A program made the translations under genes and the position numbers. A stretch of DNA of 57,879 bases from a virus: positions 1-57,879 of IMG/VR virus record IMGVR_UViG_3300028571_002227; one strand, given 5' to 3'. Under the pieces are notes generated by a model. That model was not told the DNA's origin and made no database searches. It saw nothing but the letters and a program-made list of their open reading frames with translations. Positions 2,525 through 56,229 of the stretch are shown in pieces. Each line of letters opens with the position of its first letter. Positions within the stretch are counted from its first letter, which is position 1.

Positions 2525-2527
2525 ATT

Positions 2528-11420: not shown

Positions 11421-11429
11421 AATTTTGTC

Positions 11430-35798: not shown

Positions 35799-36614
35799 AT
35801 GACAATTGACAAAAAACACTTATTGAATTGGGTCGGTGGAAAAAGATTATTGCGAAAAACTATCGCACCACTTATACCCAAAGACCTTATTTCTTACATT
35901 GAACCTTTCGGAGGAGGTGGTTGGATACTTTTTTATAAAGACAGATGGGCCGATTTGGAAATTTATAATGACTTAGATGGAAGACTTGTTAATCTTTTCA
36001 GAATTGTAAAATACCACCCGGAAGCACTAAAAGAAGAGTTAAAATACTTACTTGGTTCTCGTGAAATGTTTATGCAATTTTTAAATGCTGTTCCTTATAC
36101 GGATATCCAAAAAGCAGTACAATTCTTATTTTTAATTACCCGCTCTTTTGGGGGCAGAGGTGGGACATATGGCACAGTTAAAAAATCTTCAGGCGGGGCT
36201 AGCAAAAGCCAAAGAAATATTCTATCTAAGATAGATTCAATCCACGAAAGATTAGACAAGGTTTTAGTCGAAAACAGAGACTTTGAAAAACTGATTAAAC
36301 AATACGACCACGAAGGTGCATTTTTCTATTGTGATCCTCCATATACTTTCGGCTGTGGGTATGAAGTTACTTCAACAGAAGGATTCGCCCACGAAAGATT
36401 GAGAGACCTTTTGAAAAATATTCAGGGCCGATTCTTGCTTTCTTACGATGACAGCCCCAAGGTGCGTGAATTATACAAAGGCTTCGAAATGATTGCCATT
36501 GAACGATTAAACGGAATCAACAACAAAGGTGGCGACAGAAAAAATAAAATGTTCAAAGAACTTTTAATTGCAAATTATCCAATTGAGGACTTATTTAATG
36601 GACGAACCAATTGA
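35799..36614 (+). CDS. dam: DNA adenine methyltransferase (D12 class)
   Basis: This 271-residue protein has LLNWVGGKRLL and EPFGGGGW (SAM-binding), and FFYCDPPYTFG (catalytic DPPY) near 180. RFLLSYDDSP is further downstream. It is a solitary Dam-type N6-adenine methylase, the second DNA methylase in this head operon. It occupies a late position similar to Mu's mom gene. Its end overlaps the gpG-like gene. Confidence 0.9.
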   Translation: MTIDKKHLLNWVGGKRLLRKTIAPLIPKDLISYIEPFGGGGWILFYKDRWADLEIYNDLDGRLVNLFRIVKYHPEALKEELKYLLGSREMFMQFLNAVPYTDIQKAVQFLFLITRSFGGRGGTYGTVKKSSGGASKSQRNILSKIDSIHERLDKVLVENRDFEKLIKQYDHEGAFFYCDPPYTFGCGYEVTSTEGFAHERLRDLLKNIQGRFLLSYDDSPKVRELYKGFEMIAIERLNGINNKGGDRKNKMFKELLIANYPIEDLFNGRTN

Positions 36615-37044
36615 AATAAAAATAGATGACAAAGAGCTTAATCAAGTATTGGATAGGCTCTTTGAAAAGACTTCTGACTTAAGACCGCTAATGAAAAACA
36701 TCGCAGGTATTATGGCTGATTCTGTGGAAGAAAATTTCAAACAAGAGGGACGACCAGAGAAGTGGGCAGAATTAGCTGAATCCACGATCAAGCAAAGAAA
36801 GAAAAAAGGATACTGGCCAGGGAAGATTTTGCAAATGCGAGGCGAACTTGCAGCATCAATTACAAGCGAAGACAGCGAAAATTTAGCCATTGTCGGAACA
36901 AACAAAGCCTATGCCGCAATTCATCAATTTGGTGGGGAGGCAGGAAGAAATAAAAAAACAAAAATAGAAGCGCGACCTTATTTAAAATTAACGAAAAATG
37001 ACATAAATACGATTCTAAATATATCAACTAAACATTTAAAATGA
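36598..37044 (+). CDS. G: Phage virion morphogenesis protein (Mu gpG-like)
   Basis: About 148 residues. The start MDEPIEIKIDDKELNQVLDRL follows GAGG. The family signature is visible: GRPEKWAELAESTIKQRKKKGYWPGKILQMRGELAASI.., AYAAIHQFGGEAGRNKKTKIEARPYLKL. It acts in tail or head completion. A decayed second copy of this gene's 3' part lies at 53229-53366. Confidence 0.88.
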   Translation: MDEPIEIKIDDKELNQVLDRLFEKTSDLRPLMKNIAGIMADSVEENFKQEGRPEKWAELAESTIKQRKKKGYWPGKILQMRGELAASITSEDSENLAIVGTNKAYAAIHQFGGEAGRNKKTKIEARPYLKLTKNDINTILNISTKHLK

Positions 37045-37094
37045 ATAGTTTTCTCTCTAAACATAAAATAGGACTGTAGTATAAAGGAGAAAAA

Positions 37095-37637
37095 ATGAAT
37101 ATAGTTGAACCAATTCGTGACAAAAAAATCATTAAACAAGTAGAGAAAATTTTACAAGCAAGTAGCAATCGCAACTTGCTTATGTTTGTAATGGGTACAA
37201 ATAGTGGATTAAGGATTTCTGATATTTTAGGGCTAAATATCAAGGATGTTCGAAATAAAACACATATTGCCGTTGTAGAAAAGAAAACAGGAAAACACAA
37301 AAAATTCCCAATGAATGTTAAATTAAAAGCAATGATTGATGAGTTTATAGAAGGTAAACCTAGCGAGGAGCCACTTTTTAAAACAAGATTCAATGGAAGA
37401 CTAGATAGATTTCAAGCATACAAAATTATAAATAAGGCCTGTCGTGAAGCAGGTTTAGATTGCAAAATCGGTACTCATTCTTTGCGGAAAAGTTTTGGAT
37501 ATCATCATTATCAGCAATTTAAAGATGTTGTTATTCTTCAAAAAATATTCAATCATTCATCTCCAAGTACAACATTAAGATACATCGGAATCGAACAAGA
37601 AGAAATTGATGAAAGTTACAATAACTTTGTTCTATAA
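37095..37637 (+). CDS. Catalytic-domain-only tyrosine recombinase (probable DNA invertase)
   Basis: This 180-residue protein lacks the core-binding N-terminal domain of full integrases, like FimB/FimE-type invertases. The catalytic set is complete: R40 (NSGLRISD), K64 (EKKTGK), H128 and R131 (GTHSLRKS), H154 (IFNHSS) and Y163 (LRYIG). AAAGGAG precedes the start. Three recombination-like sites lie 50-320 bases downstream of its stop. A Mu-like element integrates by its DDE transposase, so this enzyme is more likely a local DNA switch than the integrase. Confidence 0.88.
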   Translation: MNIVEPIRDKKIIKQVEKILQASSNRNLLMFVMGTNSGLRISDILGLNIKDVRNKTHIAVVEKKTGKHKKFPMNVKLKAMIDEFIEGKPSEEPLFKTRFNGRLDRFQAYKIINKACREAGLDCKIGTHSLRKSFGYHHYQQFKDVVILQKIFNHSSPSTTLRYIGIEQEEIDESYNNFVL

Positions 37638-37687
37638 CTCTTCATCAACAAAGGTTTTAAAAGTTTAAGACAACTTAATATTAAGTA

Positions 37688-37957
37688 CACATAATAAACC
37701 TTGTGTGGTATTAAAAATAAAACCCTTATTTCTTTACCATTTAGGGGTCTTTATTTTAATGAATTTATATCTAATACAACATAAATTATAAAAATACATT
37801 TTAAAAAATGTTAAAAAACTTGATACAAATTGTTATGGTAACTGTGTTTGTGGTATTGTTTCATTGACGGGAACGGAATTCACCACACAAGGTTTATTGT
37901 GTTTGTGTTAAAATGGCTATAAAAATAGTGGGAACGTCACATAAGGTTTATTATGTG
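37688..37957. promoter_or_regulatory. Putative invertible promoter with three recombination sites
   Basis: Site 1 at 37688-37707 (cacataa-TAAACC-ttgtgtg). Site 2 at 37884-37903 (cacacaa-GGTTTA-ttgtgtt). Site 3 at 37938-37957 (cacataa-GGTTTA-ttatgtg). Each has inverted 7-bp arms around a 6-bp spacer. The spacer of site 1 is the reverse complement of the others, and site 1 matches site 3 inverted at 19 of 20 bases. Recombination of 1 with 3 (or 2) would invert about 250 (or 196) bp; 2 with 3 would delete 54 bp. The segment holds promoter-like boxes (TTGTTA/TATTGT; TATAAA at about 37918) facing the glycan operon, and GGGAACG precedes sites 2 and 3. Confidence 0.68.
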
Positions 37958-37980
37958 GTGTAAATGGAGTAATGTGAAAG

Positions 37981-39114
37981 ATGGAATCAATGCAAAAGGC
38001 TGTAGGAAATGAAAAAACTTATATTACACGGCCATTATTGCCTTCGATTGATTCTTTAATTATCCAATTAGAAGAGATTTGGGATTCTAAATGGTTGACT
38101 AATATGGGGGAAAAGCATAACCTTTTGGGTTCTCGATTAAAAGATTTTTTAAAAGTCAAAAATTTATCCCTTTTCAATAATGGCACAATTGCTCTTTTAA
38201 CGGCTTTAAAAGCACTAGAGTTGCCATATGGTAGTGAAGTAATTACGACGCCTTTTACATTTGCTGCTACACCTCACTGTATATCATGGAACGGATTAAA
38301 ACCAGTATTTTGTGATATTGAACCTAATACAATGACAATTGATGCAAATAAAATTGAATCGTTGATTACTCCTGAGACATCCGCAATATTAGCAGTTCAT
38401 GTTTATGGTTTTCCTTGTGACGTTGAAAAAATCGAAGAGATAGCCCAACGATATAATTTAAAAGTAATTTATGATGGTGCACACGTTTTTTCTACAGAAA
38501 TTAATGGAAAAGGAATTGGTGAATTTGGTGACATAACGATGTTTTCATTCCATGCAACAAAATTATTTAACACAATAGAAGGTGGATGTTTGACATATAA
38601 TGATGAGAAATTATACAAAAAAATATATAATTTGCGCAACTTTGGGATTCAATCTGAAGAATTAGTTGAGAATGTCGGTATAAATGGCAAGATGAACGAA
38701 ATTCAAGCCGCTGTTGGGCTCCTGAATTTAGAACTTGTTGCGAGTGAAAAACAAAAAAGAGCTCAAATAAACTCTTTTTACGATAAAAACATTTCAAAAA
38801 TTGATGGGATATTTATTCCCCAAATGCCTTCTAACACTACAAACTCATATCAATATTATCCAATTATCATTAATGATAATTATCCTATTTCTCGTAATGA
38901 ATTACATGATAAATTTAAGTCTAAAAATATTATGACACGTAAATATTTTTATCCATTATGTTCTGATTATGAGTGTTATAGAGACTTAAAATCATCCTCA
39001 ATAGAAAATTTACCAATTGCAAACGACATAAAAAATAGAGTTCTTTGTCTTCCTTTTTATGGGGACTTGCATAAAGAGGTTCTTGTAAAAATTTGTGAGG
39101 TGTTAAGTGAGTAA
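37981..39114 (+). CDS. DegT/DnrJ/EryC1/StrS-type sugar aminotransferase
   Basis: This 377-residue PLP enzyme has the Schiff-base lysine K194 (FHATKLFN) and the aspartate of IYDGAHVF (about 165), and FTFAATPHCI lies near 92-101. It transaminates a nucleotide keto-sugar to an amino sugar (VioA/FdtB-like). It is the first gene after the recombination switch and opens the glycan operon. The next gene overlaps it by 8 bases. Confidence 0.9.
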   Translation: MESMQKAVGNEKTYITRPLLPSIDSLIIQLEEIWDSKWLTNMGEKHNLLGSRLKDFLKVKNLSLFNNGTIALLTALKALELPYGSEVITTPFTFAATPHCISWNGLKPVFCDIEPNTMTIDANKIESLITPETSAILAVHVYGFPCDVEKIEEIAQRYNLKVIYDGAHVFSTEINGKGIGEFGDITMFSFHATKLFNTIEGGCLTYNDEKLYKKIYNLRNFGIQSEELVENVGINGKMNEIQAAVGLLNLELVASEKQKRAQINSFYDKNISKIDGIFIPQMPSNTTNSYQYYPIIINDNYPISRNELHDKFKSKNIMTRKYFYPLCSDYECYRDLKSSSIENLPIANDIKNRVLCLPFYGDLHKEVLVKICEVLSE

Positions 39115-40285
39115 ATTTAAGAATGTTTACCAGGGAATTTTTTCTATCAAAAACAATAACGACCGAAAAGTTATAACTTTTCTAGGCATAAAATTAAAGT
39201 TGAAAAATAAAAAATATTATGCAGAAACCAAAGAAGCAATAAAAATTCAAGATGATTATAATTTGCTGAAATTAATCAATGCAGAAAAAATTATTCTATT
39301 TTTTATCCCATATAAGTTTAAAATGTGTGGCGGAATAATGTCAATTTTTTCGTTATGTGAATATTCTCGTCATATAAATAATGATAGTTTTTGTTTAATC
39401 GCAACATATCCAGGTAAATTAACATATGCAAAAAATGAAGAATTTAATAATTCAGAACAAATTTATCGTTGGGAGCAAATAGTAAAAAATGCAAAAAACG
39501 TAAAAGAATTGATGATTCACATTCCTGAATATTATGCAAAAGACTTTTATTCTGATTTAAGTAAAGATGAAATTAAATTTTTAAAGTCAATTGAGTCCTT
39601 GCATATTAACATAATGAATCAAAATATTGAATTAATGCCAAAGCCGGAGAATTTAAAAGAGTTATATAAATTGACATCTAATATAACTCAAACTATTGCC
39701 CATGATAGATATGCCACTCAAGAAATTTGTAATAAATGGCAAATGCCTACGCATTTATTTTCAGTGCATATCGATTGTTCAAAATATAAATCTTATGAAT
39801 TTGATAAAAAAGAAAAAATAATTGTTTTATCCCCTGATGAAAACGAGAATAAATCTACAATTGTTGATAAATTAAAAAGGGAACTACCTGATTTTAAATT
39901 AATAACAGTTGAAAGTATGAGATTTGGCGACTATATGGATTTAATTGCGAGAGCTTATTTTACAATAACCTTCGGTGAAGGTATGGACGGTTATTTTTCT
40001 CAACCTTGTTATGTCAATAGCTTAGGTTTTGCAGTATACAATGATAAGTTTTTCCCAGACAGCTCTTGGATGGAACTAAAAAACGTATATTCCAGCTATG
40101 AAGAGATGGTTTTCAACATCATCTCAGACATGGAATGTCTATCGAAAAATGAAATAGACTACACAAATGCAATTATTAAAACAAAAGAAAAGCACAGCAA
40201 GTTATATCAATTAGATCAATTTGAAAATAATTTAAAGAAATTTTACGAATATAATTATGACTTTTATCCACAGAAGAAGGTATAA
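39107..40285 (+). CDS. Uncharacterised glycan-operon protein, family U copy 1
   Basis: This 392-residue protein is paralogous to 43841-45031. Shared blocks: IHIPEYYAKDFY; HINIMNQNIELMP..LYKLTSNITQTIAH..ATQE; FGEGMDGYFSQP..GFAVYND.FFP; SSYEEM. The N-terminus carries VITFLGIKLKLKNKK, a leader seen in many glycan-locus proteins. The C-terminal half reads like a GT-B-type glycosyltransferase donor domain (IIVLSPDENENKSTIVDKLKRELPDFKLITVE), so a glycosyltransferase or pyruvyl/phosphotransferase is a guess. No signal peptide. Confidence 0.6.
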   Translation: MSKFKNVYQGIFSIKNNNDRKVITFLGIKLKLKNKKYYAETKEAIKIQDDYNLLKLINAEKIILFFIPYKFKMCGGIMSIFSLCEYSRHINNDSFCLIATYPGKLTYAKNEEFNNSEQIYRWEQIVKNAKNVKELMIHIPEYYAKDFYSDLSKDEIKFLKSIESLHINIMNQNIELMPKPENLKELYKLTSNITQTIAHDRYATQEICNKWQMPTHLFSVHIDCSKYKSYEFDKKEKIIVLSPDENENKSTIVDKLKRELPDFKLITVESMRFGDYMDLIARAYFTITFGEGMDGYFSQPCYVNSLGFAVYNDKFFPDSSWMELKNVYSSYEEMVFNIISDMECLSKNEIDYTNAIIKTKEKHSKLYQLDQFENNLKKFYEYNYDFYPQKKV

Positions 40286-40960
40286 ATGAAAACAAATAAA
40301 TCTACTATTATATATGGTAATGGCTCGATGGCCAAAGTTTTATATTCATACATGAAACATGATTATAACATTGTAGGTTTCTGCGTAGATAAATGCTGCA
40401 TAAAAGATGATAAATTTATGGGGTTACCGTTAGTTGCTTTTGAAGAGGTCGAAAAAACTTTTTTGCCGAAAGATTGTCAAATGATTAATTCTATTGGGTT
40501 TGTTCAAATGAATGAACTTCGAAAAAACCGTTCTTTGGTGGCCAAAAGCAAAGGCTATGAATTAATTAGCTATATTGATAAATCAGTTAAGTTACATGAT
40601 GATGTAGAAGTAGGGGAGAATTGTATTATTTTAGATCTTGTATCAATTCATCCGGGCACAAAAATAAATGCAGGAACATTTATTTCTTCTAACGTAAGCA
40701 TTGGACATGATTGCAATATCGGGGAGTATAATTGGATAAACTCAGGAGTTTCTATTGCCGGATATGCTGATATTGGAGAATGCGGTTTTTGGGGAGTTAA
40801 TTCATCTTGTGGTAATAATGTGAAGATTGGCTCTCATAATTATATAAGTGCCAATACTTTTATCAGTAGAAAGACTAATGATAATGAAGTATATTTAACC
40901 CCTAATGGAGAATTATTCAAGTTATCAAGCACAAATTTTTTAAAATTTATAGGAGCATAA
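40286..40960 (+). CDS. Sugar O-/N-acyltransferase (NeuD/PglD family)
   Basis: This 224-residue protein has an N-terminal Rossmann-like part (TIIYGNGSMAKVLYSYM) and a C-terminal left-handed beta helix with hexapeptide repeats (VEVGENCIILDLVSIHPGTKINAGTFISSNVSIGHDCNIGEY). The His in IGHDC fits the catalytic histidine of PglD-type enzymes. It acetylates an amino or keto sugar nucleotide, plausibly the product of the aminotransferase. Confidence 0.82.
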   Translation: MKTNKSTIIYGNGSMAKVLYSYMKHDYNIVGFCVDKCCIKDDKFMGLPLVAFEEVEKTFLPKDCQMINSIGFVQMNELRKNRSLVAKSKGYELISYIDKSVKLHDDVEVGENCIILDLVSIHPGTKINAGTFISSNVSIGHDCNIGEYNWINSGVSIAGYADIGECGFWGVNSSCGNNVKIGSHNYISANTFISRKTNDNEVYLTPNGELFKLSSTNFLKFIGA

Positions 40961-40961
40961 A

Positions 40962-42431
40962 ATGTCTAGAATTATCGACTTATTTTATAAAAATGTAGAT
41001 AAAAGCCCAAACAAGATTGCAATTATTTGTGAGGATTCCACTTACACATATAAACAATTGGAGCTGTTAACCAATCAACTATCAAATATATTGAAAAATA
41101 ATGGAGTAAATTATGGCGATAATTTAGGCGTTTTATTGCCTAACAATATCGAATTTGTTGCGCTAATTTTAGCAGCTTCAAATTTGGGAATAGCAATTAC
41201 ACCATTAAATCCGACTCTGCCCAGTAATGCAATAAATCAAGCTTTCGAATCTGCCGATGTTAGGCATATCGTCAGTACAAAGGCAATAGTATCGGATATC
41301 AAACTCGAAATTTCGGGTTATAAATTAATTTTAGAAGAGGGAATTTTAAAAAATATTTCATCCGATAGGATTGATAATAATCAAGTAACAGGTGAAGAAG
41401 CTCTAATTTTCACAATGACATCCGGTTCCACAGGTAACCCTAAGCCGATAGTTCTTTCACAGAAAAACAAGATAGATAGAGCATTTGCAGCCATTGAACT
41501 TTATAGCGTTACCGAAAATGATAATATTCTTGCCGCAACACCTCTTTATCATTCTTTGGCTGAAAGACTAGTGATAATGCCACTCATTCTGGGGGCAACA
41601 TCCATATTAATGCCAAGATTTTCGCCATCTATTTGGCTTAAAGCAATAAAGGAAAAATCTATTACGTTCACAATCGCAGTTTCTTCTCAATTGAGACAAA
41701 TTGCAGAAGTCCTCACCAGTCCTTATGTGCCAGAAATAACAACATTAAGATGTGTAGTTTCGTCTTCAGCACTTTTAGAGCCGCATACGAAAAAGGAACT
41801 TGTAAATAAATTACATTGTGATTTTCATGAATGTTACGGAACCTCGGAAATTGCAATAGCTACAAATTTAAATATTATCGATTCAAAAGAGAAAATGAAG
41901 TCTGTTGGTCGTGCAATAAAAAATGTTGATGTAAAAATTCTGCTTGGCGATAACACTTTTGCCGGAGTTGATGAAATAGGAGAGATAATTTGTAATACCC
42001 CAATGCTCTTTATGGGGTATTATAAACAGCCGAAGATGACCGAAGATGCAATGTTTGGGGAGTATTTCAGAACTGGAGATTTAGGCAAAATTGACGAAGA
42101 TGGATTCCTTTATTTTGTAGATAGACAAAAAGATTTGATAATTTCAGGGGGGATAAATGTTTACCCAAATGATGTTGAAGAGGTTGTATCTAAATTTGAG
42201 AATGTGGTTGAATGTGCAGCATTTCCGTATCCTGATGAAAACTTAGGCGAAGTAGTTGCCCTTGCAATAGTGGTAGATAATGAATTCGATTTGAGAAAAT
42301 TCAAATTCCATTGTGCAAAAAATCTTGCTGACTTCCAATTACCCAGAAAATATTTTGTCCTAGATTGTTTACCAAGAAACAATATGGGTAAATTAGTAAA
42401 ACATAAATTAGTAGAATTACTTATAGAATAG
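40962..42431 (+). CDS. Acyl-AMP ligase / acyl-CoA synthetase-like
   Basis: This 489-residue ANL enzyme has the P-loop MTSGSTGNPKPI (about 150-161), ECYGTSEIA, YFRTGDLGKIDEDGFLYFVDRQKDLIISGGINVYPNDVEEV, and a terminal catalytic Lys (RNNMGKLVK). It adenylates a carboxylic acid and loads it on CoA or the carrier protein at 43599-43841. Substrate unknown. Two genes downstream comes the acyl carrier protein. Confidence 0.85.
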   Translation: MSRIIDLFYKNVDKSPNKIAIICEDSTYTYKQLELLTNQLSNILKNNGVNYGDNLGVLLPNNIEFVALILAASNLGIAITPLNPTLPSNAINQAFESADVRHIVSTKAIVSDIKLEISGYKLILEEGILKNISSDRIDNNQVTGEEALIFTMTSGSTGNPKPIVLSQKNKIDRAFAAIELYSVTENDNILAATPLYHSLAERLVIMPLILGATSILMPRFSPSIWLKAIKEKSITFTIAVSSQLRQIAEVLTSPYVPEITTLRCVVSSSALLEPHTKKELVNKLHCDFHECYGTSEIAIATNLNIIDSKEKMKSVGRAIKNVDVKILLGDNTFAGVDEIGEIICNTPMLFMGYYKQPKMTEDAMFGEYFRTGDLGKIDEDGFLYFVDRQKDLIISGGINVYPNDVEEVVSKFENVVECAAFPYPDENLGEVVALAIVVDNEFDLRKFKFHCAKNLADFQLPRKYFVLDCLPRNNMGKLVKHKLVELLIE

Positions 42432-42439
42432 AGGAAACG

Positions 42440-43597
42440 ATGAAGTTCAAAAAATTAAAGATAGGTTTCATAGGTGGAGCAATATCCTCAGCTGTTGGGT
42501 ACGCACATTTTTCGGCGTGTAAAATGGACAATCGATTTGAGCTTGTAGCAGGTTGTTTTAGCAGAAATGAATCAATTTGCCAAGAAACAGCTGACATATA
42601 TGGAGTTTCGCAAGATAGAACTTACACCGATTGGCGGGAAATGATTAAAAATGAAAAAGGCAAAATAGATGCACTTTCCATTTTAACCCCAACGCCTTGC
42701 CATTATGAAATGGTTGTAGAATGTATAAAGGCAGGAATTCCCATTATCTGTGAAAAAACTTTAGCTATGAATAGTCAAGAAGCAATAGAAATCTCAAAAA
42801 TGGTTAAAGAAAATAATGGTTTTTTGACAGTAACATATAATTATACAGGTTATCCAATGATACGAGAGCTAAGAAAATTAATCAATGACGATAAATTGGG
42901 CAATATACTGCACTTTCAAGCAAAAATGCCGCAAGAAGGATTTATTAGAGTAAATAAAAATGGACAGAAGCCTAATCCCCAGCAGTGGCGATTAGAAGAT
43001 AAAACAATTCCTACAATCCATCTCGATTTATGTGCACATCTGCATGAAATCATATATTACTTAATAAACAAAAATCCTGAATCCGTTGTCTGTGACCAGG
43101 CAAGCGACGGTTGGTTTGAAAACATTATCGACAATGTATCTTGTTTATGTAGATATGACAAAAACATTCAGGGGCAATTCTGGTTTTCTAAATCAGCATT
43201 AGGTCATAGAAATGGTTTAGAAATAAATATATTTGGAACAAAAGGTGCTGCAAAGTGGGTTCAAATAAATCCTGAAGAACTTGAATTATCATTTGCTGAC
43301 GGAACAAGACAAATCTTAGACAGGGCTTCTGATGTTGAAGTTGCAGATCAACCAAGGTATACAAGGTTTAAAGCAGGACATCCTGTCGGTTTTATCGAGG
43401 CATTTGCCAATGTATATTGTGATATTCATAAAGCATTAATTGAGTACCAGGAAACTGGCAAATGGCAGTCAAGTGAAATTTTCAGTTCGGACTTTGCATT
43501 AGAAGGGTTATTGTTTCTTGAAGCAATGGTTGAATCTTCTAAAACAAAATCTTGGATAAATATAATGGGAAGTAATGTTAAAGCAGGAGTAATTTAA
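42440..43597 (+). CDS. Gfo/Idh/MocA-family sugar oxidoreductase
   Basis: This 385-residue NAD(P)-dependent enzyme starts KLKIGFIGGAISSAVGYAHFSACKMDNRFELVAGCFSRNE (Rossmann glycine pattern, slightly unusual with GGAISSA). It has the EKTLAMN motif with the conserved Lys (about 99-105). HLDLCAHLHEI fits the active-site His region. It likely oxidises or reduces a nucleotide sugar within the pathway. Confidence 0.85.
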   Translation: MKFKKLKIGFIGGAISSAVGYAHFSACKMDNRFELVAGCFSRNESICQETADIYGVSQDRTYTDWREMIKNEKGKIDALSILTPTPCHYEMVVECIKAGIPIICEKTLAMNSQEAIEISKMVKENNGFLTVTYNYTGYPMIRELRKLINDDKLGNILHFQAKMPQEGFIRVNKNGQKPNPQQWRLEDKTIPTIHLDLCAHLHEIIYYLINKNPESVVCDQASDGWFENIIDNVSCLCRYDKNIQGQFWFSKSALGHRNGLEINIFGTKGAAKWVQINPEELELSFADGTRQILDRASDVEVADQPRYTRFKAGHPVGFIEAFANVYCDIHKALIEYQETGKWQSSEIFSSDFALEGLLFLEAMVESSKTKSWINIMGSNVKAGVI

Positions 43598-43598
43598 A

Positions 43599-43841
43599 AT
43601 GTGTGAAGAAATAAAAAAATTTATCGTAAACTATATTGAAAAAAAAGGAAACTTACCAAAGAATGTTGATTTGGATAATTTTAACTACATAGAATCCGGA
43701 TATATAGATTCTATGGGGATAATTAAATTTGTTGTTGAATTAGAGAGCAAATTTAATGTTCAAATAACCGATGAAGAAATGATTTCATCAAGTTTTAAAA
43801 CAATTGGCGGCTTAGTAAGTCTAATAGAAAAGAAATTATAA
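43599..43841 (+). CDS. Acyl carrier protein
   Basis: This 80-residue acidic protein has the phosphopantetheine site Ser38 in GYIDSMGIIKFVVELE. AGGAG lies upstream. Its stop overlaps the next start. It probably carries the acyl group activated by the ligase at 40962-42431 to a sugar acceptor. It is not the housekeeping fatty-acid ACP, judging by context. Confidence 0.85.
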   Translation: MCEEIKKFIVNYIEKKGNLPKNVDLDNFNYIESGYIDSMGIIKFVVELESKFNVQITDEEMISSSFKTIGGLVSLIEKKL

Positions 43842-45031
43842 TGGACATAAGTAGATTTTATACGAGAATAATAAATGCTCTAACCTTCTGGATTATGCCG
43901 GCAAGGTTAAGAAGATTGATAAGAAATACTCTTTGTGGAAGAACCAATATTTCACTAAAAAAAGTGCAAAATCATCTTATCAATTATGAAGATTTAAAAG
44001 CTACACAATTGATAGTAATGTTAATTCCAGAACACAACTGTATGTCGGGAGGAATTTATTCGATGTTTTCAATTGCGAACAATTCTGAAAGGTATACACA
44101 TATTCATAATTCTAATATTGTGCTAATGACTCGCCCCAATATAAAAAAAGAAACTTATATAAGGCAAACAAATTTTAAAAATCATAATATAATATACCGT
44201 TTTGAACAGATTTTAGCTTTTGAAAATTTGGATAAATTGATTATTCACATTCCTGAAGAATCAGCTAAAACTTTTTATTCTCTATTATCAACTAAGGTAA
44301 AAGCTCATTTAGGTCAAATTAATCATGTTCAAATCAACATTATGAATCAGAATATTGATTTGATGCCTCCCAAAGAGGACTATATAGATTTATATGAAAT
44401 TACAAATAATATTACTCAGACAGTTGCCCATCATAGTTATTGTTCACAAGAACACGCTAACAAGTCTGATTTATCAACATTGTTAATCCCTCCATATACG
44501 GATCTAAGTAAATACCCTAAAAGAGAATTCAACAAAAAGAATAAAATGGTTCTATATTCGTTAGATGTTAATGAATATAAAGATAAAATTTTAAATAAAA
44601 TAAGAGAAGAACTACCAGAATATGAACTTCTTGAAATAAAAGACATTACTTTTGACAAGTATATGTCTTTGGTAACCGATTCAAAATTCATGATAACATT
44701 CGGCGAAGGCTTTGATGGATATCTTGCACAATCAATGCTCCAAGGGGGGATTGGATTTGCGGTTTATAATGAAGGTTTTTTCCCACAGGAATTTGATAAT
44801 TCAAAACCTAATATTTTTAGTAGTTACGAGGATATGTATGAAAATATCGTGAATCGAATAAAGCTTTTTGAAAAAGATTCAGCGATATATAAATCGACCA
44901 ATGATTATTTCGTCGATTTGCAAAATAAATTATACAATTTTGAAGATTATTTAAATTGTATAAAGAGGTTTTATGAACAAGATTTTGATTATTATTCACA
45001 AAATACTAAAAAAATAATGCAAGGAGTGTAA
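43841..45031 (+). CDS. Uncharacterised glycan-operon protein, family U copy 2
   Basis: This 396-residue paralogue of 39107-40285 shares all the conserved blocks (IHIPEESAKTFY; QINIMNQNIDLMP; NNITQTVAHHSYCSQEHAN; FGEGFDGYLAQS; GFAVYNEGFFP; SSYEDM). The N-terminus lacks the LGIKLKLK leader and instead begins DISRFYTRIINALTFWIMPARLRRL, a basic amphipathic segment that may touch the membrane. Two copies in one operon suggest successive steps on two acceptors. Confidence 0.6.
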   Translation: MDISRFYTRIINALTFWIMPARLRRLIRNTLCGRTNISLKKVQNHLINYEDLKATQLIVMLIPEHNCMSGGIYSMFSIANNSERYTHIHNSNIVLMTRPNIKKETYIRQTNFKNHNIIYRFEQILAFENLDKLIIHIPEESAKTFYSLLSTKVKAHLGQINHVQINIMNQNIDLMPPKEDYIDLYEITNNITQTVAHHSYCSQEHANKSDLSTLLIPPYTDLSKYPKREFNKKNKMVLYSLDVNEYKDKILNKIREELPEYELLEIKDITFDKYMSLVTDSKFMITFGEGFDGYLAQSMLQGGIGFAVYNEGFFPQEFDNSKPNIFSSYEDMYENIVNRIKLFEKDSAIYKSTNDYFVDLQNKLYNFEDYLNCIKRFYEQDFDYYSQNTKKIMQGV

Positions 45032-45766
45032 TGGGAATACAATTTATACAAAATCTGATTGATATAATAAGAAAAAAAGATAAGAGGCAGAATTACTTAA
45101 TTTATATTGATGAAAAAGGTGAAGAACATTTTAATCCTCAAGTTAAAGGCTTAAAGGTTCTATTTTTAGGTGAGCAATCATTGGTTAAGGTGTATACTAA
45201 AAAGTTTAATAACTGTAAAATCGTCTGTACATCTAATAATTATGTAGAAATAAAACAAACCAAACATTGTATTAATAATCTAATAACCCCTATACCTATG
45301 AGTAAACATTCTAAACTTTTTATTGATGAAGACTTATTCTGTGCGAGTATAAAAATATTTCTTTGTGACGAAGAGAACAAAACAATTACTATAGGGAAAG
45401 ACTGTATGTTCTCTTTTGATGTCGTATTATGGGCAAGTGACGGACATTCGATTTATGATACTAATTCATTAAAAATATTAAATAAACCCTTGTTCGGAAT
45501 AACTATAGGTAATCATTGCTGGATAAGTCGAAATGTTTCGATATTAAAAGATGTTTCAGTACCAGATAATGTAATAATTGGTTGTGGAAGCATAGTTACT
45601 AATTCAACAAAAAAGCTGGAAAACACTGTTATGGGGGGGGGTTCCAGCTAAAATAATTAAAAGAAATACAAATTGGTCTCGTAAAAATACTGATTCGTAT
45701 GCGGATATTTTTCAAAATGATATTGCAACACAGGATTTTTGTCAAGACAAAATGAGTTTATATTAG
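45031..45766 (+). pseudogene. Hexapeptide acyltransferase split at a 9-G tract (phase-variable or broken)
   Basis: The frame from 45031 reads as a LbH acyltransferase (ITIGNHCWISRNVSILKDVSVPDNVIIGCGSIVTN) but after ..ENTVM the nine G (45633-45641) shift it, and it stops at 45651 (GGGSS). With one G fewer it continues MGGVPAKIIKRNTNWSR.. to 45766, restoring the invariant G-x-PAK ending of the family. So the gene is either phase-variably off, a true mutation, or a sequencing error. The truncated form would lack 41 C-terminal residues. Confidence 0.8.
45633..45641 (+). repeat. Poly-G tract (9 G) inside an acyltransferase gene
   Basis: ATG-GGGGGGGG-TTCC: nine consecutive G in an AT-rich gene. 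Slipped-strand changes of one base would switch the C-terminus between GGVPAK (full length) and GGGSS-stop. Confidence 0.9.
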
Positions 45767-45780
45767 AGGAAAGGGATATT

Positions 45781-46899
45781 ATGAATAAGAATATGAAAAA
45801 ATTATTACAAGTTTTATTTTCGGTAACAAATAAAGGACCCCATAAGGTATTCACAATATTAGGATTTAAACTAAAACTAAAACTAAAACTAAAATTGAAT
45901 CCAATAGAATCTCAAATTAAAAAATTAGAAACGGTTGACGAAAATTGTTGGGATAAGTATTTAATCGATACTCAAAAAGAACTATTATTTTATGATAGAA
46001 ATCTTGATGATGTTAAAAAAAAGGATTTATTCAAAAAATATGTTACCGCAATAAACCTCGAAACCAGTAGCTTTTGTAATAGGAAATGTAATTATTGTCC
46101 TTGTGCTCAAATTGACAGAGGCGGACAAAAATTAATGGAAGATTCTTTATTTTCTAACATAATAGATGATTTAGCCAGTATAAATTATTCAATGGTTATA
46201 AGCTTAAATTTATATAACGAACCATTGGCGGACAAAAAAATATTGGAACGTATTAAAGAAATAAGAAAAAAATGCCCCAATAGCGTAATAAAATTTAATT
46301 CCAATGGTGATTATTTAACAACGAAATATTTAGACGAGTTAGAAGCTGCAGGATTGAATGCTCTTTTTATAACAATGCAAGTTGATTCAAATCATCAATA
46401 TAATGATGATATACAAATGAACAAACTTAAAAAGTTCTTTGAAAAATTAAAGCTCGAATTCAAAATGGATGTTTTTATTCCAAACGAAAAAATTGAATCA
46501 AGCCTCTATTATAAAAGGTTACAACTCCTTATAATGTCTAACAATTGGGATGAATTTGGTAATGATAGAGGCGGTACTGTGGAGAATTTAAGTATTTCTA
46601 ACAGAACGGAGCCTTGTTTAAGAGGGATTAGGGAATTTACAATTGATTATCAAGGGAATTGTTTTTTCTGTTGTCAAATATATCCTCTTTCGCATGATGC
46701 AGAAAAATATAAACTTGGGAATCTTGTGGAAAATTCTATGTTTGAAATATATTGTACTCAATTCGCAACAAATTTAAGGCGGAATCTTTTTACTTTTTCT
46801 TCCAAAGTCGAACCTTGTTCAAGCTGTGCGGATGAAAGTTTTGCGAAAATCGAAACAAAAGAAATTCGTGAAAAAATAATTATTACTTCAAACAATTAA
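45781..46899 (+). CDS. Radical SAM/SPASM-type protein of the glycan operon
   Basis: About 372 residues. The start MNKNMKKLLQVLF is preferred to the upstream ATG at 45739, which lies in the end of the acyltransferase frame. Radical SAM motif TSSFCNRKCNYCPC. C-terminal cysteines CLRG..GNCFFCCQIYP..EPCSSCADE form a SPASM-like second cluster. The N-terminus has the KVFTILGFKLKLKLKLKL leader encoded by an AAACTA repeat. Substrate unknown; glycan-locus radical SAM enzymes may dehydrogenate or epimerise sugars. Confidence 0.8.
   Translation: MNKNMKKLLQVLFSVTNKGPHKVFTILGFKLKLKLKLKLNPIESQIKKLETVDENCWDKYLIDTQKELLFYDRNLDDVKKKDLFKKYVTAINLETSSFCNRKCNYCPCAQIDRGGQKLMEDSLFSNIIDDLASINYSMVISLNLYNEPLADKKILERIKEIRKKCPNSVIKFNSNGDYLTTKYLDELEAAGLNALFITMQVDSNHQYNDDIQMNKLKKFFEKLKLEFKMDVFIPNEKIESSLYYKRLQLLIMSNNWDEFGNDRGGTVENLSISNRTEPCLRGIREFTIDYQGNCFFCCQIYPLSHDAEKYKLGNLVENSMFEIYCTQFATNLRRNLFTFSSKVEPCSSCADESFAKIETKEIREKIIITSNN
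45868..45896 (+). repeat. Hexanucleotide repeat coding for Lys-Leu
   Basis: Four to five units of AAACTA lie near the start of the radical SAM gene and encode KLKLKLKL. Unit gain or loss keeps the frame and only changes the length of the basic-hydrophobic leader. Confidence 0.7.
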
Positions 46900-46919
46900 A
46901 AGAAAGGACATTTATAATT

Positions 46920-47933
46920 ATGAAAATTAAAGCCGGACAAAAAATAATAGATTTAATAAGAGGTAAAAAAACTGGGGCATCAAAAGCAGAATCTAAATTG
47001 CAGATTAAGTATAATTTACTTACGGAAAAATTGTCGAAATTCGACTTGGAAGGAATATTTCAAACATATGCGTTATTAGCTGATGATTATTCAAAAGAAA
47101 TGTTTATTAAAGTCATGCAATATCGACTTACAGAGGCTAAAAACGTACTTCCGCCACAAAAAATGTATGATCAGGAAATACTCAAAACTTTAAAAATAAG
47201 CGATGAAATGATTAAAATTTGGAATTTCAATCTTCAACTACTTGATTTAAATAACCTTGGATATGACGTAAAAGTATATAACGATCCGGGTGGCTTAAAA
47301 ATGGGGCTTGGACAATACAAATACGCAAATGATAAGATAAGTATTAAGGTCGAAGAGGGTGATTATGTTATTGATGGCGGTGCTTGTTATGGTGATACAG
47401 CATTGTATTTTGCCCATGATGTGGGAGCAAATGGCAAAGTGTTCTCTTTTGAATTTTTAAAAGACAATGTTGAAATGTTTAATAAAATGCTTGATTTAAA
47501 TCCTGAATTAAAAAATAGAATACAACTTTTTAAAAATGCTCTTTGGGAAAATTCAAATGAACATTTGTACGTAATTGGCAATGGTCCGGCAACAAACTGC
47601 TCGTTAGAAAAACCTGAAAAATATGACGCTCAAGTCCAAACAAAATCGATTGATGACATGGTAAAAGAGCAAAATATTGAAAAAATCAATTTTATAAAAC
47701 TTGATATTGAAGGTGCTGAACTTGAATGCTTGAAAGGTGCTAAAAATACTATTCAAACATTCAAACCGAAACTTACAGTTTGTTTATATCATGATCAAAC
47801 TCATTTTGTATCAATACCAAAATATTTAAAACAATTGGTTCCTGAATATGATTTTTATCTTGATCATCATACCGAAAGTTTGGGAGAAACCGTTTTGTAT
47901 GCTACGATCCAAGGAGAATCAAATAATGGATAA
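46920..47933 (+). CDS. FkbM-family methyltransferase
   Basis: This 337-residue protein has the SAM-binding motif YVIDGGACYGDTALYFAHDVGANGKVFSFE (about 143-172) and INFIKLDIEGAELECLKGA (about 257-275), both typical of FkbM. It methylates a hydroxyl group, likely of a sugar in the glycan made here. The stop overlaps the start of the DAHP synthase gene. Confidence 0.87.
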   Translation: MKIKAGQKIIDLIRGKKTGASKAESKLQIKYNLLTEKLSKFDLEGIFQTYALLADDYSKEMFIKVMQYRLTEAKNVLPPQKMYDQEILKTLKISDEMIKIWNFNLQLLDLNNLGYDVKVYNDPGGLKMGLGQYKYANDKISIKVEEGDYVIDGGACYGDTALYFAHDVGANGKVFSFEFLKDNVEMFNKMLDLNPELKNRIQLFKNALWENSNEHLYVIGNGPATNCSLEKPEKYDAQVQTKSIDDMVKEQNIEKINFIKLDIEGAELECLKGAKNTIQTFKPKLTVCLYHDQTHFVSIPKYLKQLVPEYDFYLDHHTESLGETVLYATIQGESNNG

Positions 47934-48765
47934 TTTAAAATTAGTAAATAAAAAAAATTCAGAAGACAAAACGACCTTTAAAATAGGTAATATAGAAGTT
48001 GGCGAGGACTTTTTAATGATTGCAGGTCCTTGCAGTGTTGATAATGAAGAACAAATTATTCAAACCGCTATTGCTGTTAAAAAAGCCGGTGCAAATATGT
48101 TGAGGGGTGGAGCCTATAAACCTAGGACTTCTCCTTATGCTTTTCAAGGGCTAGGATTGAAGGGATTGCAATATTTGAAAAAAGCTGGTGAAATTGCTGA
48201 TTTACCTATTATTACAGAAGTTGTAGATACAAGAGATGTTTATTTAGTAGCAGAATATGCTGATGTTTTACAGATAGGTGCCAGGAATATGCAAAATTTT
48301 TCTTTACTTCAAGAAGCTGGACGTACAAACAAACCAGTGTTGTTAAAGAGGGGCTTCTATGCGACCTTGGAAGAATGGTTAAATGCAGCAGAATACATTA
48401 TGAACGAAGGTAATCAACAAGTAATACTGTGCGAAAGAGGGATTCGGACAGTTGAGACTTACACACGGAACACTTTGGATTTGAGTGCTGTTGCTTCATT
48501 AAAAAATATAACTCACCTTCCAATAATAACCGATCCGTCCCATGCCACTGGCAGACTTGAACTAATAGAACCGATGTGTTTAAGCTCTATTGTTGCAGGA
48601 TGTGATGGATTAATGCTCGAGGTGCATATCAATCCTAAAGACGCCTTATGCGATGCTAAACAGGCTTTGAATCCTATACAATTTTCAAATATAATGTCGA
48701 AAATTAATTTAACTAACAATTTCTATAATAATTTGTATCATGAAGAAATCGTCAAAATGTCCTAA
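47926..48765 (+). CDS. aroF: 3-deoxy-7-phosphoheptulonate (DAHP) synthase-like
   Basis: About 279 residues. The start MDNLKL sits on AAGGAG. Features: MIAGPCSVDNEEQI, LRGGAYKPRTSPYAFQGLG, ITEVVDTRD, LQIGARNMQNF, LLKRGF, LCERGIRT, DPSHATGR and LMLEVH. This is the KDO8P/type I-beta DAHP synthase fold without a regulatory domain. It makes DAHP from PEP and erythrose-4-phosphate at the head of the shikimate pathway. As last gene of the glycan operon it may feed an aromatic or related acid for the AMP ligase; this is speculative. It could equally be host housekeeping. Confidence 0.8.
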   Translation: MDNLKLVNKKNSEDKTTFKIGNIEVGEDFLMIAGPCSVDNEEQIIQTAIAVKKAGANMLRGGAYKPRTSPYAFQGLGLKGLQYLKKAGEIADLPIITEVVDTRDVYLVAEYADVLQIGARNMQNFSLLQEAGRTNKPVLLKRGFYATLEEWLNAAEYIMNEGNQQVILCERGIRTVETYTRNTLDLSAVASLKNITHLPIITDPSHATGRLELIEPMCLSSIVAGCDGLMLEVHINPKDALCDAKQALNPIQFSNIMSKINLTNNFYNNLYHEEIVKMS

Positions 48766-49348: not shown

Positions 49349-51172
49349 TTAAGCCATTGCTTCAGTTTTTGCAAACTGCATTTCATAAAGGTGTTTATAT
49401 TTTCCATTCTCGATATTTATTAATTCTTCATGAGTTCCAATTTCAGCCAATTCACCTTCATTTATAACCGCAATTCTATCGGCATTTTGAATTGTTGAAA
49501 GTCTATGAGCGATTACAAAAACTGTTTTGTTTTGCATCAAGTTGTCCAAGGCTTGCTGAACAATCGCTTCTGATTTGTTATCAAGAGCTGAAGTTGCTTC
49601 ATCAAGCACAACTATCGGAGCGTTTTTAAGCATAGCACGAGCAATTGCTACACGTTGTCTTTGTCCGCCTGAAAGAGTTGATCCTCGTTCTCCTACAAAT
49701 GTATCTATGCCGTCTTCAAGAGAGCCGATAAATTCATCCAAATGTGCCATTCTTATAACTTCGTCTAATTCTTCTTCTGATGCAGATTTTCTGCTCATCA
49801 TGATATTTTCTTTAATCGTACCTGAAAATAAGAAATTATCTTGAAAAACAAAAGAAATCTGTTCTCTTAATGAAGTTAAGGTGAAACTTCTTAAATCCAC
49901 TCCATCGATTTCAATCGAGCCGGATTTTACATCGTAAAAACGAGGAATAAGATTAACTACAGTGCTTTTGCCACCGCCTGAGTTACCGACAAGTGCGATT
50001 GTTTGGTTTTTAGGGACTGTTAATGAAAAATTCTTAAGAACTGGAACACCTTCATTATATTCAAAATAAATATTCTTAAATTCGATTTGTTTGTCAAAGC
50101 TTTTTAATTCAATTGCGTTAGGTTCTGTTTTGATTTCAGGAACCAAGTCAAACAGTTCAAATACTCTACCCATTGCAACGAATGTTCCTTGCAGCCCTGC
50201 AAGCGTTTGTCCTAGACCTTTTACTGGCTTGTAAAGCAATAATAATGAAGTTACAAAGGCAGCAAAGCTACCGCTTGTAAGTTCGCCACTTATAATCAAA
50301 TGGTTTCCATATGCCATTACAATAGCAATCCCAAAAGATGCAACCAAATACATGATTGGAGATAACCAGCCAACACGCTTAGTAAGAGTCATTGACAAAT
50401 TAAACGACTCGTTGACTTGACCCTGAAAAGCCTGATTCTGTTGTTCTTGTAAGTTATATGCAGCTATAATTTTATTTCCAGAGAAGGTTTCGTTAAAATT
50501 CGTTACCATCCCCCCGCCGACAACCATTCCTTGGTTAGAAACTTTCTTAACTATTTTTCTAATAAAAGCGACCGGCAACATTGCAAGCCCCAATACGGTA
50601 ACGCCAATAATTGCAAGCTTCCACGCTGTATACATTAAAACTGCGACTAGCCCTACAATCCCAAAAGCTGTAGATATAAAGGTTTTTACATTATCGATAA
50701 TACTTCTTGAAGCAGCGTCAGGATCGCCTAAAAATCTTGTTAAAACAAGTCCTGATGAATTAATATCATAAAATTTTGGGCTTAGTGAGGTTAATTTTCT
50801 GAATAAATCAACTTTTAATGCATTTGCAACTTTCATCCCTGTCCAATCAGTCAAATATGTATTTAAATATTTTAATCCACCTTGAAAAACGGCAAAAGTT
50901 ATAATTGCTGGTGGGATTATAGTTGCCCAAAAATGTCTGCTATGGAAAGTTCTACCAAGAAATTCAAATGTCGCCAGAGAATTTCCGTTGATAACATTAT
51001 CTAAATAAGGTTTTAATGCAATCGCAGTAACACCATCTAACAGACCTAACGGAACTGCTATCAATAGCCCTAAAATAGCCCTTCCCATTACGGGTTTTAT
51101 GTACGGAAAAATTCTTTCTAGTAAATAACCATATCTAAATGCGTCTTTTGACACTGTATCATTTAATTTCAT
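49349..51172 (-). CDS. msbA: MsbA-like lipid/glycolipid ABC exporter
   Basis: This 607-residue half-transporter has six transmembrane helices in residues about 25-330 and an ATPase domain with Walker A LVGNSGGGKST, signature LSGGQRQR and Walker B IVVLDEATSALD. The type flips lipid-linked molecules such as lipid A core. Opposite strand to the glycan operon and convergent with the GT2 fragment. It may be a resident host gene or serve the glycan pathway. Confidence 0.88.
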   Translation of the reverse strand: MKLNDTVSKDAFRYGYLLERIFPYIKPVMGRAILGLLIAVPLGLLDGVTAIALKPYLDNVINGNSLATFEFLGRTFHSRHFWATIIPPAIITFAVFQGGLKYLNTYLTDWTGMKVANALKVDLFRKLTSLSPKFYDINSSGLVLTRFLGDPDAASRSIIDNVKTFISTAFGIVGLVAVLMYTAWKLAIIGVTVLGLAMLPVAFIRKIVKKVSNQGMVVGGGMVTNFNETFSGNKIIAAYNLQEQQNQAFQGQVNESFNLSMTLTKRVGWLSPIMYLVASFGIAIVMAYGNHLIISGELTSGSFAAFVTSLLLLYKPVKGLGQTLAGLQGTFVAMGRVFELFDLVPEIKTEPNAIELKSFDKQIEFKNIYFEYNEGVPVLKNFSLTVPKNQTIALVGNSGGGKSTVVNLIPRFYDVKSGSIEIDGVDLRSFTLTSLREQISFVFQDNFLFSGTIKENIMMSRKSASEEELDEVIRMAHLDEFIGSLEDGIDTFVGERGSTLSGGQRQRVAIARAMLKNAPIVVLDEATSALDNKSEAIVQQALDNLMQNKTVFVIAHRLSTIQNADRIAVINEGELAEIGTHEELINIENGKYKHLYEMQFAKTEAMA

Positions 51173-53488: not shown

Positions 53489-54187
53489 GTGGCGAATAAA
53501 CCTAAAAATAGAATATCTCATATAACTTGGAATAAAGAAAAACGTATAATAGCAGTTGTTATTATAGGCTTATTGTTTGGAGTTTTAAAGCTAAATGACC
53601 TAAACGATTTCATTTCTATACTATTAGTGATTTCCATCGGAGTATTATTACCCAACTTATTTGACATTACTGATGTTATATTGAACAAAATCCTAGAATT
53701 GCAAGATGTAACAAATCCTAATCGTTATAAAAGAACGTTGGAAATTTATGACGATCGTTTAGAAAACTTTGCTAACCATTTTTATTTTTTTATCGCCGAA
53801 ATCCTAACAGCGCCTAAGAGGAAAATATTATTAAATAGAAAAGATTCAACTGTAAAATCAACAGCCAGAGCATTTCAAAATCTATTAAATGATGGGCAAC
53901 CTGATTTTATAAGAGTTATAAAAGATGAAAAAGAAACTTTTAGTGATGTTTCTTGGAACCATTTTAGTGCGACACAAGGTGAACTTTGTGATATATATAG
54001 AATTTTAAAATCTTTGCCAAAAGAATTAGAATTCACCTATAAACGTTATCCGGAATTTATAAATTTACAAAGTGCTTTTTATCAAATTAAAGATACGCTC
54101 ACCTATAATGCTTCTTCAAGAGCATGTGAAGCATTTGTGGAAGCTTTTTTAAAAGATTTAATTATGTATTGTAAAATTGATACATAG
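53489..54187 (+). CDS. Membrane-anchored protein upstream of the FRG gene
   Basis: This 232-residue protein starts with GTG behind AGAGG. Two transmembrane segments at about 21-35 and 41-60 (IIAVVIIGLLFGVLKL; FISILLVISIGVLLPNLF) are followed by a helical cytosolic domain of about 160 residues (..YDDRLENFANHFYFFIAEIL..). No family recognised. Lies 49 bases before the FRG-domain gene, same strand, so they may form a two-gene defence unit. Confidence 0.6.
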   Translation: MANKPKNRISHITWNKEKRIIAVVIIGLLFGVLKLNDLNDFISILLVISIGVLLPNLFDITDVILNKILELQDVTNPNRYKRTLEIYDDRLENFANHFYFFIAEILTAPKRKILLNRKDSTVKSTARAFQNLLNDGQPDFIRVIKDEKETFSDVSWNHFSATQGELCDIYRILKSLPKELEFTYKRYPEFINLQSAFYQIKDTLTYNASSRACEAFVEAFLKDLIMYCKIDT

Positions 54188-54236
54188 AAAAAATATTGTA
54201 CCTATTAACCCTAGGCTACAAAAGTGAGGAAGGTTT

Positions 54237-55163
54237 ATGACACTAAGTTATTCAGGACAAGTTATTGCAAACAATCAGGGGTCTGTTTCTATATTAATTA
54301 CTGACCCAATGGGCGGTTATGGTTTTTATAGAGGTGAAAATGACGATAATGGGGAGTTTAAGGCATCTTTCAAGAGGGATAGTAGAGGTTCTCTCAATCA
54401 CTGCAAAAAATATATTCAAAAACAGATGTTTTTATGTTGGTTTACTCAAACTCCTTATTATAAATTTTTTACATCTAAAAAATTTATGGGTGGTGATTTT
54501 CTTTTAGATAAAGAAGCCATTGCACAGCATTACGGCTTTGCAACAAATTATCTAGATATAACATGCAATATTGAAGTTGCTGAGTTTTTTGCATATACAT
54601 ATACTGATAAAAACGGCCATTATCTTCCAATTAGTAATTTTAGCGAAATTCAACCTTGCTTGTACTTAAGTTCTGGTTCGGAATTATTTGATCCAAGAAA
54701 TACAGACTTTAATATTATCGGATTCCAAGTTTTAACAAGACCAATGTGGCAATATGCAATGGCGATTGATTTGTCAAATCCCAAATATGATTACAATAAA
54801 TTATTTACAAAAACTCTTTTACCCAAAGACCCTGCAAGAGCAAGGAAAATATATGAGAAGTTTAATGGTGGAGAATATCTATTTCCAAAAGATTGTGCAG
54901 GAATAATAGAAAACAGTATAAAAAAACATAAAGGATTAAATATTCATTTATTTAACCAGTACTGTAAACTTTTCAATATAAATTCTAATTTAAAAACAGA
55001 ATTAAAAAATGAATTTAAGGAAAAAAAATATTTCTTTGATAAGAGTTACTTTCCCGTAGATGAAAACACTCAAAAGGCAATGCAAAAAGAAATTGAAGAA
55101 GCAATTTTACCATGGATAAATCAACATATTCAGCCAGCCAGTTTATGTTGTAAACCAATTTAA
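54237..55163 (+). CDS. FRG-domain protein
   Basis: This 308-residue protein has the FRG signature: GFYRGENDDN (about 28-37) and KEAIAQHYGFATNYLDITCNIEVAEFFA (about 91-118). FRG domains occur in proteins near phage defence and mobile elements; their activity is not established. AGGAAGG precedes the start. Low GC content compared with the phage genes. Confidence 0.75.
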   Translation: MTLSYSGQVIANNQGSVSILITDPMGGYGFYRGENDDNGEFKASFKRDSRGSLNHCKKYIQKQMFLCWFTQTPYYKFFTSKKFMGGDFLLDKEAIAQHYGFATNYLDITCNIEVAEFFAYTYTDKNGHYLPISNFSEIQPCLYLSSGSELFDPRNTDFNIIGFQVLTRPMWQYAMAIDLSNPKYDYNKLFTKTLLPKDPARARKIYEKFNGGEYLFPKDCAGIIENSIKKHKGLNIHLFNQYCKLFNINSNLKTELKNEFKEKKYFFDKSYFPVDENTQKAMQKEIEEAILPWINQHIQPASLCCKPI

Positions 55164-55221
55164 AATTAAATATCTAAGCACATCGCCGTACATTTCTACT
55201 TGCAAAACTTCATCAGACCAG

Positions 55222-55788
55222 CTATTTATGTAGAATAATGCTTAAGCACTTGTCGATTTCTTCAATATCAGGTTCTGCTTTGTCCCAAGTTGCACCACAC
55301 TCGCCGTACAACTTGTATGTTTCCAAAAAGCCAACAAGCTTAAACCATTGTTCTTCTTTAATTAATTGCAGAATTCCGGCGATACGATTTACCATGTATT
55401 TATTTAATGTCATCATATCTTCATCTGATAATTTACCATCTACGTGCATATCTTCAACCGGTCCGTTTCTGAATGCATAATTAGTAATAATTTTAGAAAA
55501 TTTATCAATATCAAAATTGTCGAAAAAGACTTTCTTCATTGTTTCATTGGTATTCTTCGAAACATTGTCAATCAAATTAGTTGCAGTTGTTTCCATAAAT
55601 TTTATACCGAATTTTTTTCTTTTGTAATCTATTTGAGATTTTTTTGCACCGTATAAGTGCGAGATTAAAACCGTAGGGATTTTTTCACCAGTATAAAGTT
55701 TGCGTAATTGGTCTTCAGAAATATCCGCCCAAGAAAGCTTGATGCCGGATTCTTTTTGTTTATTTAATTCATCATAAGTAAATATCAT
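55222..55788 (-). CDS. Hypothetical protein, cargo
   Basis: This 188-residue protein has an N-terminal region resembling a DNA-binding HTH (WADISEDQLRKLYTGEKIPTVLISHLYGAKKSQIDYKRKKFG) followed by an acidic helical part. Could be a regulator. Convergent with the FRG gene. Confidence 0.5.
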   Translation of the reverse strand: MIFTYDELNKQKESGIKLSWADISEDQLRKLYTGEKIPTVLISHLYGAKKSQIDYKRKKFGIKFMETTATNLIDNVSKNTNETMKKVFFDNFDIDKFSKIITNYAFRNGPVEDMHVDGKLSDEDMMTLNKYMVNRIAGILQLIKEEQWFKLVGFLETYKLYGECGATWDKAEPDIEEIDKCLSIILHK

Positions 55789-55885
55789 TAAAATTATTCC
55801 TTAATTTTATATCAACAATATTAACAGAAATATTATTTTTACGAAACAATATCTTCTTTATTGTATAATTTACATGAGGTAATTT

Positions 55886-56167: not shown

Positions 56168-56229
56168 AAAATATAAACAAAAATATTTACACGAAAAATT
56201 ATGGAATTTTAAGAACTGAAGGAAACAAA

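Follow-up and report, generated by a model that had tools for sequence, protein, structure and literature searches.

A probable phase-variation module ahead of a likely envelope-glycan operon in a Mu-like temperate phage of Gastranaerophilales

In E. coli, the fim switch associates a small catalytic-only recombinase (the tyrosine invertases FimB and FimE) with a short inverted-repeat segment, the 314-bp fimS, upstream of a surface-structure operon. The same association is found in the 57,879-bp stretch of DNA from an IMG/VR virus record analysed here (hereafter the window), but with three sites instead of two, a phage carrier, a biosynthetic operon as cargo and a recombinase that scores below the cut-offs for FimB/E-type enzymes. 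The G segment of Mu and the C segment of P1 are examples of site-specific inversion on a phage, Mu-like as in the window. Their enzymes, Gin and Cin, are serine recombinases that invert tail-fibre coding sequence and affect host range, not expression. Such tail-fibre inversions are also mentioned in PMC5903667.

Promoter-type inversions ahead of polysaccharide operons are known from the capsule loci of B. fragilis (Mpi) and from gut invertons. However, the master invertase of B. fragilis belongs to the serine recombinases and works in trans (PMC5903667), whereas the window holds a local tyrosine recombinase beside its own sites, with locus-specific cores, and is not of the Mpi type; the parallel with Bacteroides capsule switches drawn in the initial annotation fails at this point. 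The RecV switches of C. difficile also combine a tyrosine recombinase with intergenic segments, of 154-230 bp (PMC5903667), but they are chromosomal and one recombinase serves several distant switches. The gtr operons of Salmonella prophages (P22 and others) reach the same outcome, a phage-borne phase-variable glycan modification, by epigenetic means involving Dam and OxyR (PMC7380047). In contrast, no GATC occurs in the control region of the window (37638-37980), so that the Salmonella-type signature of GATC with OxyR is absent, and DNA inversion would take its place.

With inverted repeats around a short intergenic segment ahead of an operon, the switch of the window is best called an inverton. 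We are fairly confident that it forms part of a self-contained phase-variation module on a Mu-like temperate phage of Gastranaerophilales, in which inversion of the segment would switch an envelope-glycan operon. The open-access literature yielded no paper joining Gastranaerophilales with phase variation or Melainabacteria with invertible promoters, and the papers listed included none on a phage-borne invertible promoter for a glycan operon, an absence that is weak evidence in each case.

The recombinase, its sites and the intergenic segment

The switch region lies between the phage neck genes and an 11-gene operon and contains the following features:

37095-37637, + strand: REC, a 180-aa catalytic-domain-only tyrosine recombinase (PF00589, phrog_216, catalytic residues, Xer structure profiles)
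37688-37707, + strand: site 1, CACATAA-TAAACC-TTGTGTG (core TAAACC), 50 bp past the REC stop
37708-37937, no strand: putative invertible segment, 230 bp (sites 1 and 3) or 176 bp (sites 1 and 2), in size and position as in the relatives seen in two orientations
37710-37760, no strand: weak terminator-like hairpin within the segment, stem AAATAAAACCCTTA/TAGGGGTCTTTATTTT
37785-37814, - strand: best sigma-70-like promoter match, TTAACA-18-TATAAT, 11 of 12 consensus positions, a candidate by likeness to the consensus
37884-37903, + strand: site 2, CACACAA-GGTTTA-TTGTGTT (core GGTTTA), kept in the closest relative, L002
37938-37957, + strand: site 3, CACATAA-GGTTTA-TTATGTG (core GGTTTA), 23 bp ahead of the first operon codon

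REC is a tyrosine recombinase, as it matches PF00589 (Phage_integrase) at 8e-27 and 94.5 bits, against a gathering score of 27.1; its match to phrog_216 reaches 3e-59. The full R-K-H-R-H-Y catalytic set (R40, K64, H128, R131, H154 and Y163) is invariant among 26 relatives. Profile matches to structures point to XerA, XerC, XerD and XerH, and the best curated-model matches are likewise of the Xer type, the XerA model giving 98 bits, which is above the FimB/E-type scores yet under its cut-off of 220. The kinship with FimB proposed initially is not borne out, with only 44.3 and 35.2 bits for the FimB/FimE-type models NF007371 and NF007370 (cut-offs 222 and 221). DNA of the REC family was found in at least 198 of the 288 Gastranaerophilales-family genomes tested, with several copies per genome in the 15 genomes examined. 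A Helicobacter sp. contig (L012, 10580-10830) carries a recombinase 67% identical to REC and the site arms of the window (CACCACAYAA) around a different core (TAGGTA).

The recombinase and the three sites are present with the cores and orientations described in the initial annotation. The inverted 7-bp arms attributed to all three sites hold overall, except that the outer arm of site 2 is symmetrical at only 6 of 7 bp. All three sites are quasi-palindromic. Site 1 is opposite in orientation to sites 2 and 3, matching site 3 inverted at 19 of 20 positions and site 2 at 20 of 21, while sites 2 and 3 form a direct repeat with a spacing of 54 bp. These sites exceed chance expectation: shuffling the 900-bp region 400 times under a Markov model never gave an inverted 20-mer pair with at most one mismatch, and the motif ACAYAA-N6-TTRTGT, expected 0.03 times per window, occurs three times in the switch region and nowhere else in the window.

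According to the proposed mechanism, the phage-encoded recombinase would act on site 1 together with either site 3 or site 2 and invert 176-230 bp. Two inversions being possible with three sites, the inner piece and the 54-bp piece could be arranged in as many as four ways. Deletion of the 54 bp through the direct sites 2 and 3, put forward earlier, is unlikely as a normal outcome because the diverged lineages of the window and L002 both retain all three sites; 54 bp is, moreover, a very short loop.

The inverting segment would either carry the transcription start of the operon or decide whether transcription reaches it. As assembled, the best promoter match does not face the operon but the opposite way, which hints that this orientation is OFF, while its score in a generic PWM promoter scan is near the shuffle mean, no better than that of shuffles. 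The hairpin at 37710-37760 (z -1.4, against z -2.8 for its homologue in L002) could act in both directions. We infer the position of the promoter and the direction of control, and likewise the chemistry and surface location of the product.

The carrier phage, its closest relative and the operon

The module and its surroundings comprise the following:

4406-7262, + strand: Mu-type transposase A and B genes (phrog_310, 2e-85; phrog_296, 5e-76)
10811-37044, no strand: structural, packaging, tail and methyltransferase genes of the carrier phage, the last being the neck gene at 36568-37044
37981-48765, + strand: 11-gene operon, assigned by profile matches; related operons with DegT, gene 2 and ABC genes occur in other Gastranaerophilales
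49349-51172, - strand: MsbA-like ABC exporter travelling with the module (MsbA model 503 bits, cut-off 602)

The carrier combines A/B transposition with head and tail genes, as in Mu-like transposable phages, its gene set including a protease, capsid, sheath, tape measure, tail, terminase, portal, two methyltransferases and the neck gene. Because the nucleotide relatives of the window are Gastranaerophilales MAGs and viral contigs, this order of gut bacteria is the likely host.

A further set of transposition genes, of TniA/TniB type, occupies 566-3259 (A-B pair region 566-3884); the window thus holds two distinct Mu/Tni-type A-B pairs, both of which are also in L002, far apart. The window begins within the 3' end of a tRNA-Leu (1-70). 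Each end of the L002 contig has one copy of a direct repeat made up of a tRNA-Ser-like 3' end and the sequence that trails it (L069/L067, G001). This suggests tRNA genes as the location of these elements, perhaps by means of the TniA/TniB-type genes. Defence cargo is found at 53489-57420, namely Shedu SduA (473 bits) and an FRG-domain protein (PDC-S15-like), and L002 carries a TPR-S/MAP3K-TRAF-binding protein (G001 contig, 1155-2534). A radical SAM protein at 9527-10429 matches prokaryotic viperins (PADLOC pVip, 2e-22).

The closest relative, L002, is a 57,821-bp contig whose recombinase is 93% identical to REC in amino acids. At the REC module, DNA homology between the two is confined to 37078-37960 of the window, that is to REC, the segment and the three sites, with 86% nucleotide identity. 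Elsewhere the two phages are homologous, though in a different arrangement; with respect to the recombinase module, the block of structural genes in L002 (G001) has another position and the reverse orientation. The L002 module is flanked by phage genes on both sides, early genes on one and a neck gene on the other, which argues that the operon module is phage-borne. Given this placement, the possibility that the operon is host DNA past the end of the phage was rejected for the module; the window itself ends before the right end.

A search for further copies of the switch in viral contigs, by segment and site patterns, returned L002 as the sole real match; four site-pattern matches (L154-L157) were dismissed since they lack a recombinase. 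Hence the same three sites, for which an opposite middle had been anticipated in related genomes, were recovered from L002 only, in the same orientation as in the window. This shared orientation despite 14% divergence, together with the degenerate left arms of sites 1 and 3, would suit a relic in which the ancestral architecture is real and the copy of the window no longer inverts. We nevertheless regard such a locked switch as improbable: REC is intact, has all its catalytic residues and is highly conserved in L002, and the cores are perfectly conserved in the six sites of the two phages.

The homology with L002 ends at 37960, 3 bp beyond site 3, after which the operons differ. This boundary, and the varied cargo behind the same module in many loci, could also mean that site 3 is a cassette-exchange point at which whole downstream operons are swapped in an integron-like manner, instead of or besides promoter flipping. 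This is very improbable, as the window has no second site at the far end of the operon, and ordinary homologous recombination or gene acquisition beside a conserved regulator would look alike.

The first six genes of the operon encode, in order, a DegT aminotransferase, a GT-like protein with a shared N-terminal segment, a NeuD-type acyltransferase, an AMP ligase, a Gfo/Idh protein and an ACP. They are followed by a paralogue of gene 2, an acetyltransferase, a radical SAM/SPASM protein, an FkbM methyltransferase and a DAHP synthase, the latter assigned by a curated cut-off that ruled out KdsA. The paralogues encoded by genes 2 and 7 are proteins without a recognised family. The first 40-50 residues of gene 2 recur across many other Gastranaerophilales proteins, and glycan genes of L014 and L050 begin in a similar way; a single-sequence AlphaFold model of gene 2 (pLDDT 42) was discarded. 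The exporter is 60% identical to one at the end of the L002 operon, 50% to that of L035 and 54% to that of L145, and viral contigs queried with the exporter and gene 2 gave no matches.

Our best guess from these gene assignments is that the operon makes an envelope glycan or glycolipid. Aminoshikimate pathways also combine DegT, Gfo/Idh and DAHP synthase, and the product could instead be a small molecule. Thus, of the surface-glycan operon announced initially, the phage location indicated by L002 and the envelope-type genes stand, and the product is only likely to be a surface glycan.

Orientation and architecture among relatives

Two MAG contigs, L024 and L025, have 100% identical flanks around a perfectly inverted 319-bp segment, and the L024 orientation was seen in two further genomes. 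Their prophage is of the same Mu-like type as that of the window (portal 66-67%, second methyltransferase 83% identical). It has two recombinases in tandem, the inverted segment lying behind the second and ahead of a 1206-aa secreted Pmp-repeat protein. Behind the first recombinase, which comes after the neck gene, are inverted repeats, a GerE/LuxR-type HTH protein and a small protein (10805-11519); copies of this first segment in L018, L021, L023, L024, L025 and L033 are in one orientation throughout. In a second case, the flanks of L050 agree with those of L051 and L052 while the segment between the repeats is inverted; a phage terminase and endolysin lie upstream, and Stealth, heptosyltransferase-like and polysaccharide pyruvyl transferase genes downstream.

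Both orientations are thus seen in these two sets of relatives, while the copy of the window and its sole close relative are in one; inversion of the window's own segment is inferred from this likeness. The recombinase-controlled invertible element initially proposed ahead of an envelope-type operon in a Mu-like phage is to that extent upheld, by relatives rather than by the window copy. In addition, among 55 MAG contigs, breaks within 600 bp of the recombinase occur on its downstream side in 14 and on its upstream side in 3 (p=0.013), as expected for regions of mixed orientation, although other repeats could break contigs too.

The layout that recurs among relatives consists of the recombinase, about 50 bp, an inverted site, 100-300 bp, a second inverted site and a gene. 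Of 61 non-redundant relatives whose sequence extends 400 bp downstream of the recombinase, 30 have a strong inverted pair in that stretch, against 0 of 58 upstream and 1 of 138 random stretches; about half of the 61 have no clear pair by the same criterion. Arms and cores vary between loci, but the two sites within a locus agree; the central 6 bp have mismatches at 2 of 180 positions, against 25 of 180 at distance 3-5, as strand exchange requires. In about half of the loci, 13-30 bp separate the outer site from the first codon. No promoter fits in this gap, and it would therefore lie within or upstream of the segment. A third site, a weaker copy on the recombinase side, is present in L050, L052, L035 and L091, and L146 has two direct sites and one inverted. 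In L146 (1400-4030, genome G019) the exporter is inverted and located between the recombinase and the operon, with the three sites between the divergent exporter and operon, such that a single flip could serve either side.

Recombinase and repeats alone are no proof of switching. Homologues of REC in Firmicutes phages (about 48% identical) have inverted repeats of 14-18 bp, about 80-90 bp apart, just downstream, and all 61 of 61 are in one orientation (L196, 5900-6700, and about 60 similar IMG/VR loci; L239). With these short repeats near terminase genes, the Xer-type curated matches of REC and the adjacency of REC to TniA/TniB-type transposition genes in L021, L022 and L031, the recombinase and sites might serve resolution or maintenance of a mobile element, as with TnpI/IRS or XerH-type systems, the glycan operon being a passive neighbour. 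We give this explanation a low probability, as resolution requires direct repeats in different copies, whereas in the prevailing arrangement, which has been seen inverted, the two sites form an inverted pair within 100-300 bp, directly ahead of a gene.

The cargo of the relatives comprises glycosyltransferases, Stealth, heptosyltransferase, CDP-glycerol transferase, pyruvyl transferase, KdsD and large secreted adhesin-like proteins. In L035, a podovirus-type prophage (nozzle, head-tail connector), the recombinase and inverted repeats accompany a glycosyltransferase, a CDP-glycerol transferase, a cytidylyltransferase, an epimerase and an exporter. The order of elements in L145 is that of the window: the recombinase comes with inverted repeats, and DegT is 66%, gene 2 53% and the exporter 54% identical. 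Six further loci (L148-L153) have DegT and gene 2 with no recombinase within the stretch read; therefore, related operons exist outside the module too. The combination first described as belonging to a Mu-like element is indeed present there, but the module spans several phage types: Mu-like, podovirus-type (L035) and terminase/endolysin (L051). A broader and rather doubtful reading would make it a plug-in phase-variation cassette of recombinase, sites and exchangeable envelope operon, acquired separately by unrelated temperate phages of one order, in which three sites would provide more than two expression states and the outer site would be the point of operon exchange.

Possible consequences for lysogenic conversion

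Lysogenic glycan conversion is usually pictured as constant or host-controlled. In a phase-variation module such as that proposed for the window, the phage would supply its own reversible DNA switch, and lysogens would turn an envelope-glycan (glycolipid-like) modification on and off. A lysogen population would therefore automatically be mixed for a surface trait, lysogenic conversion being expressed by only part of it. Together with the relatives of the L024/L025 and L050 types, the window indicates that such viruses probably equip their host with a surface trait that can be turned on and off, one that may affect superinfecting phages or immunity.
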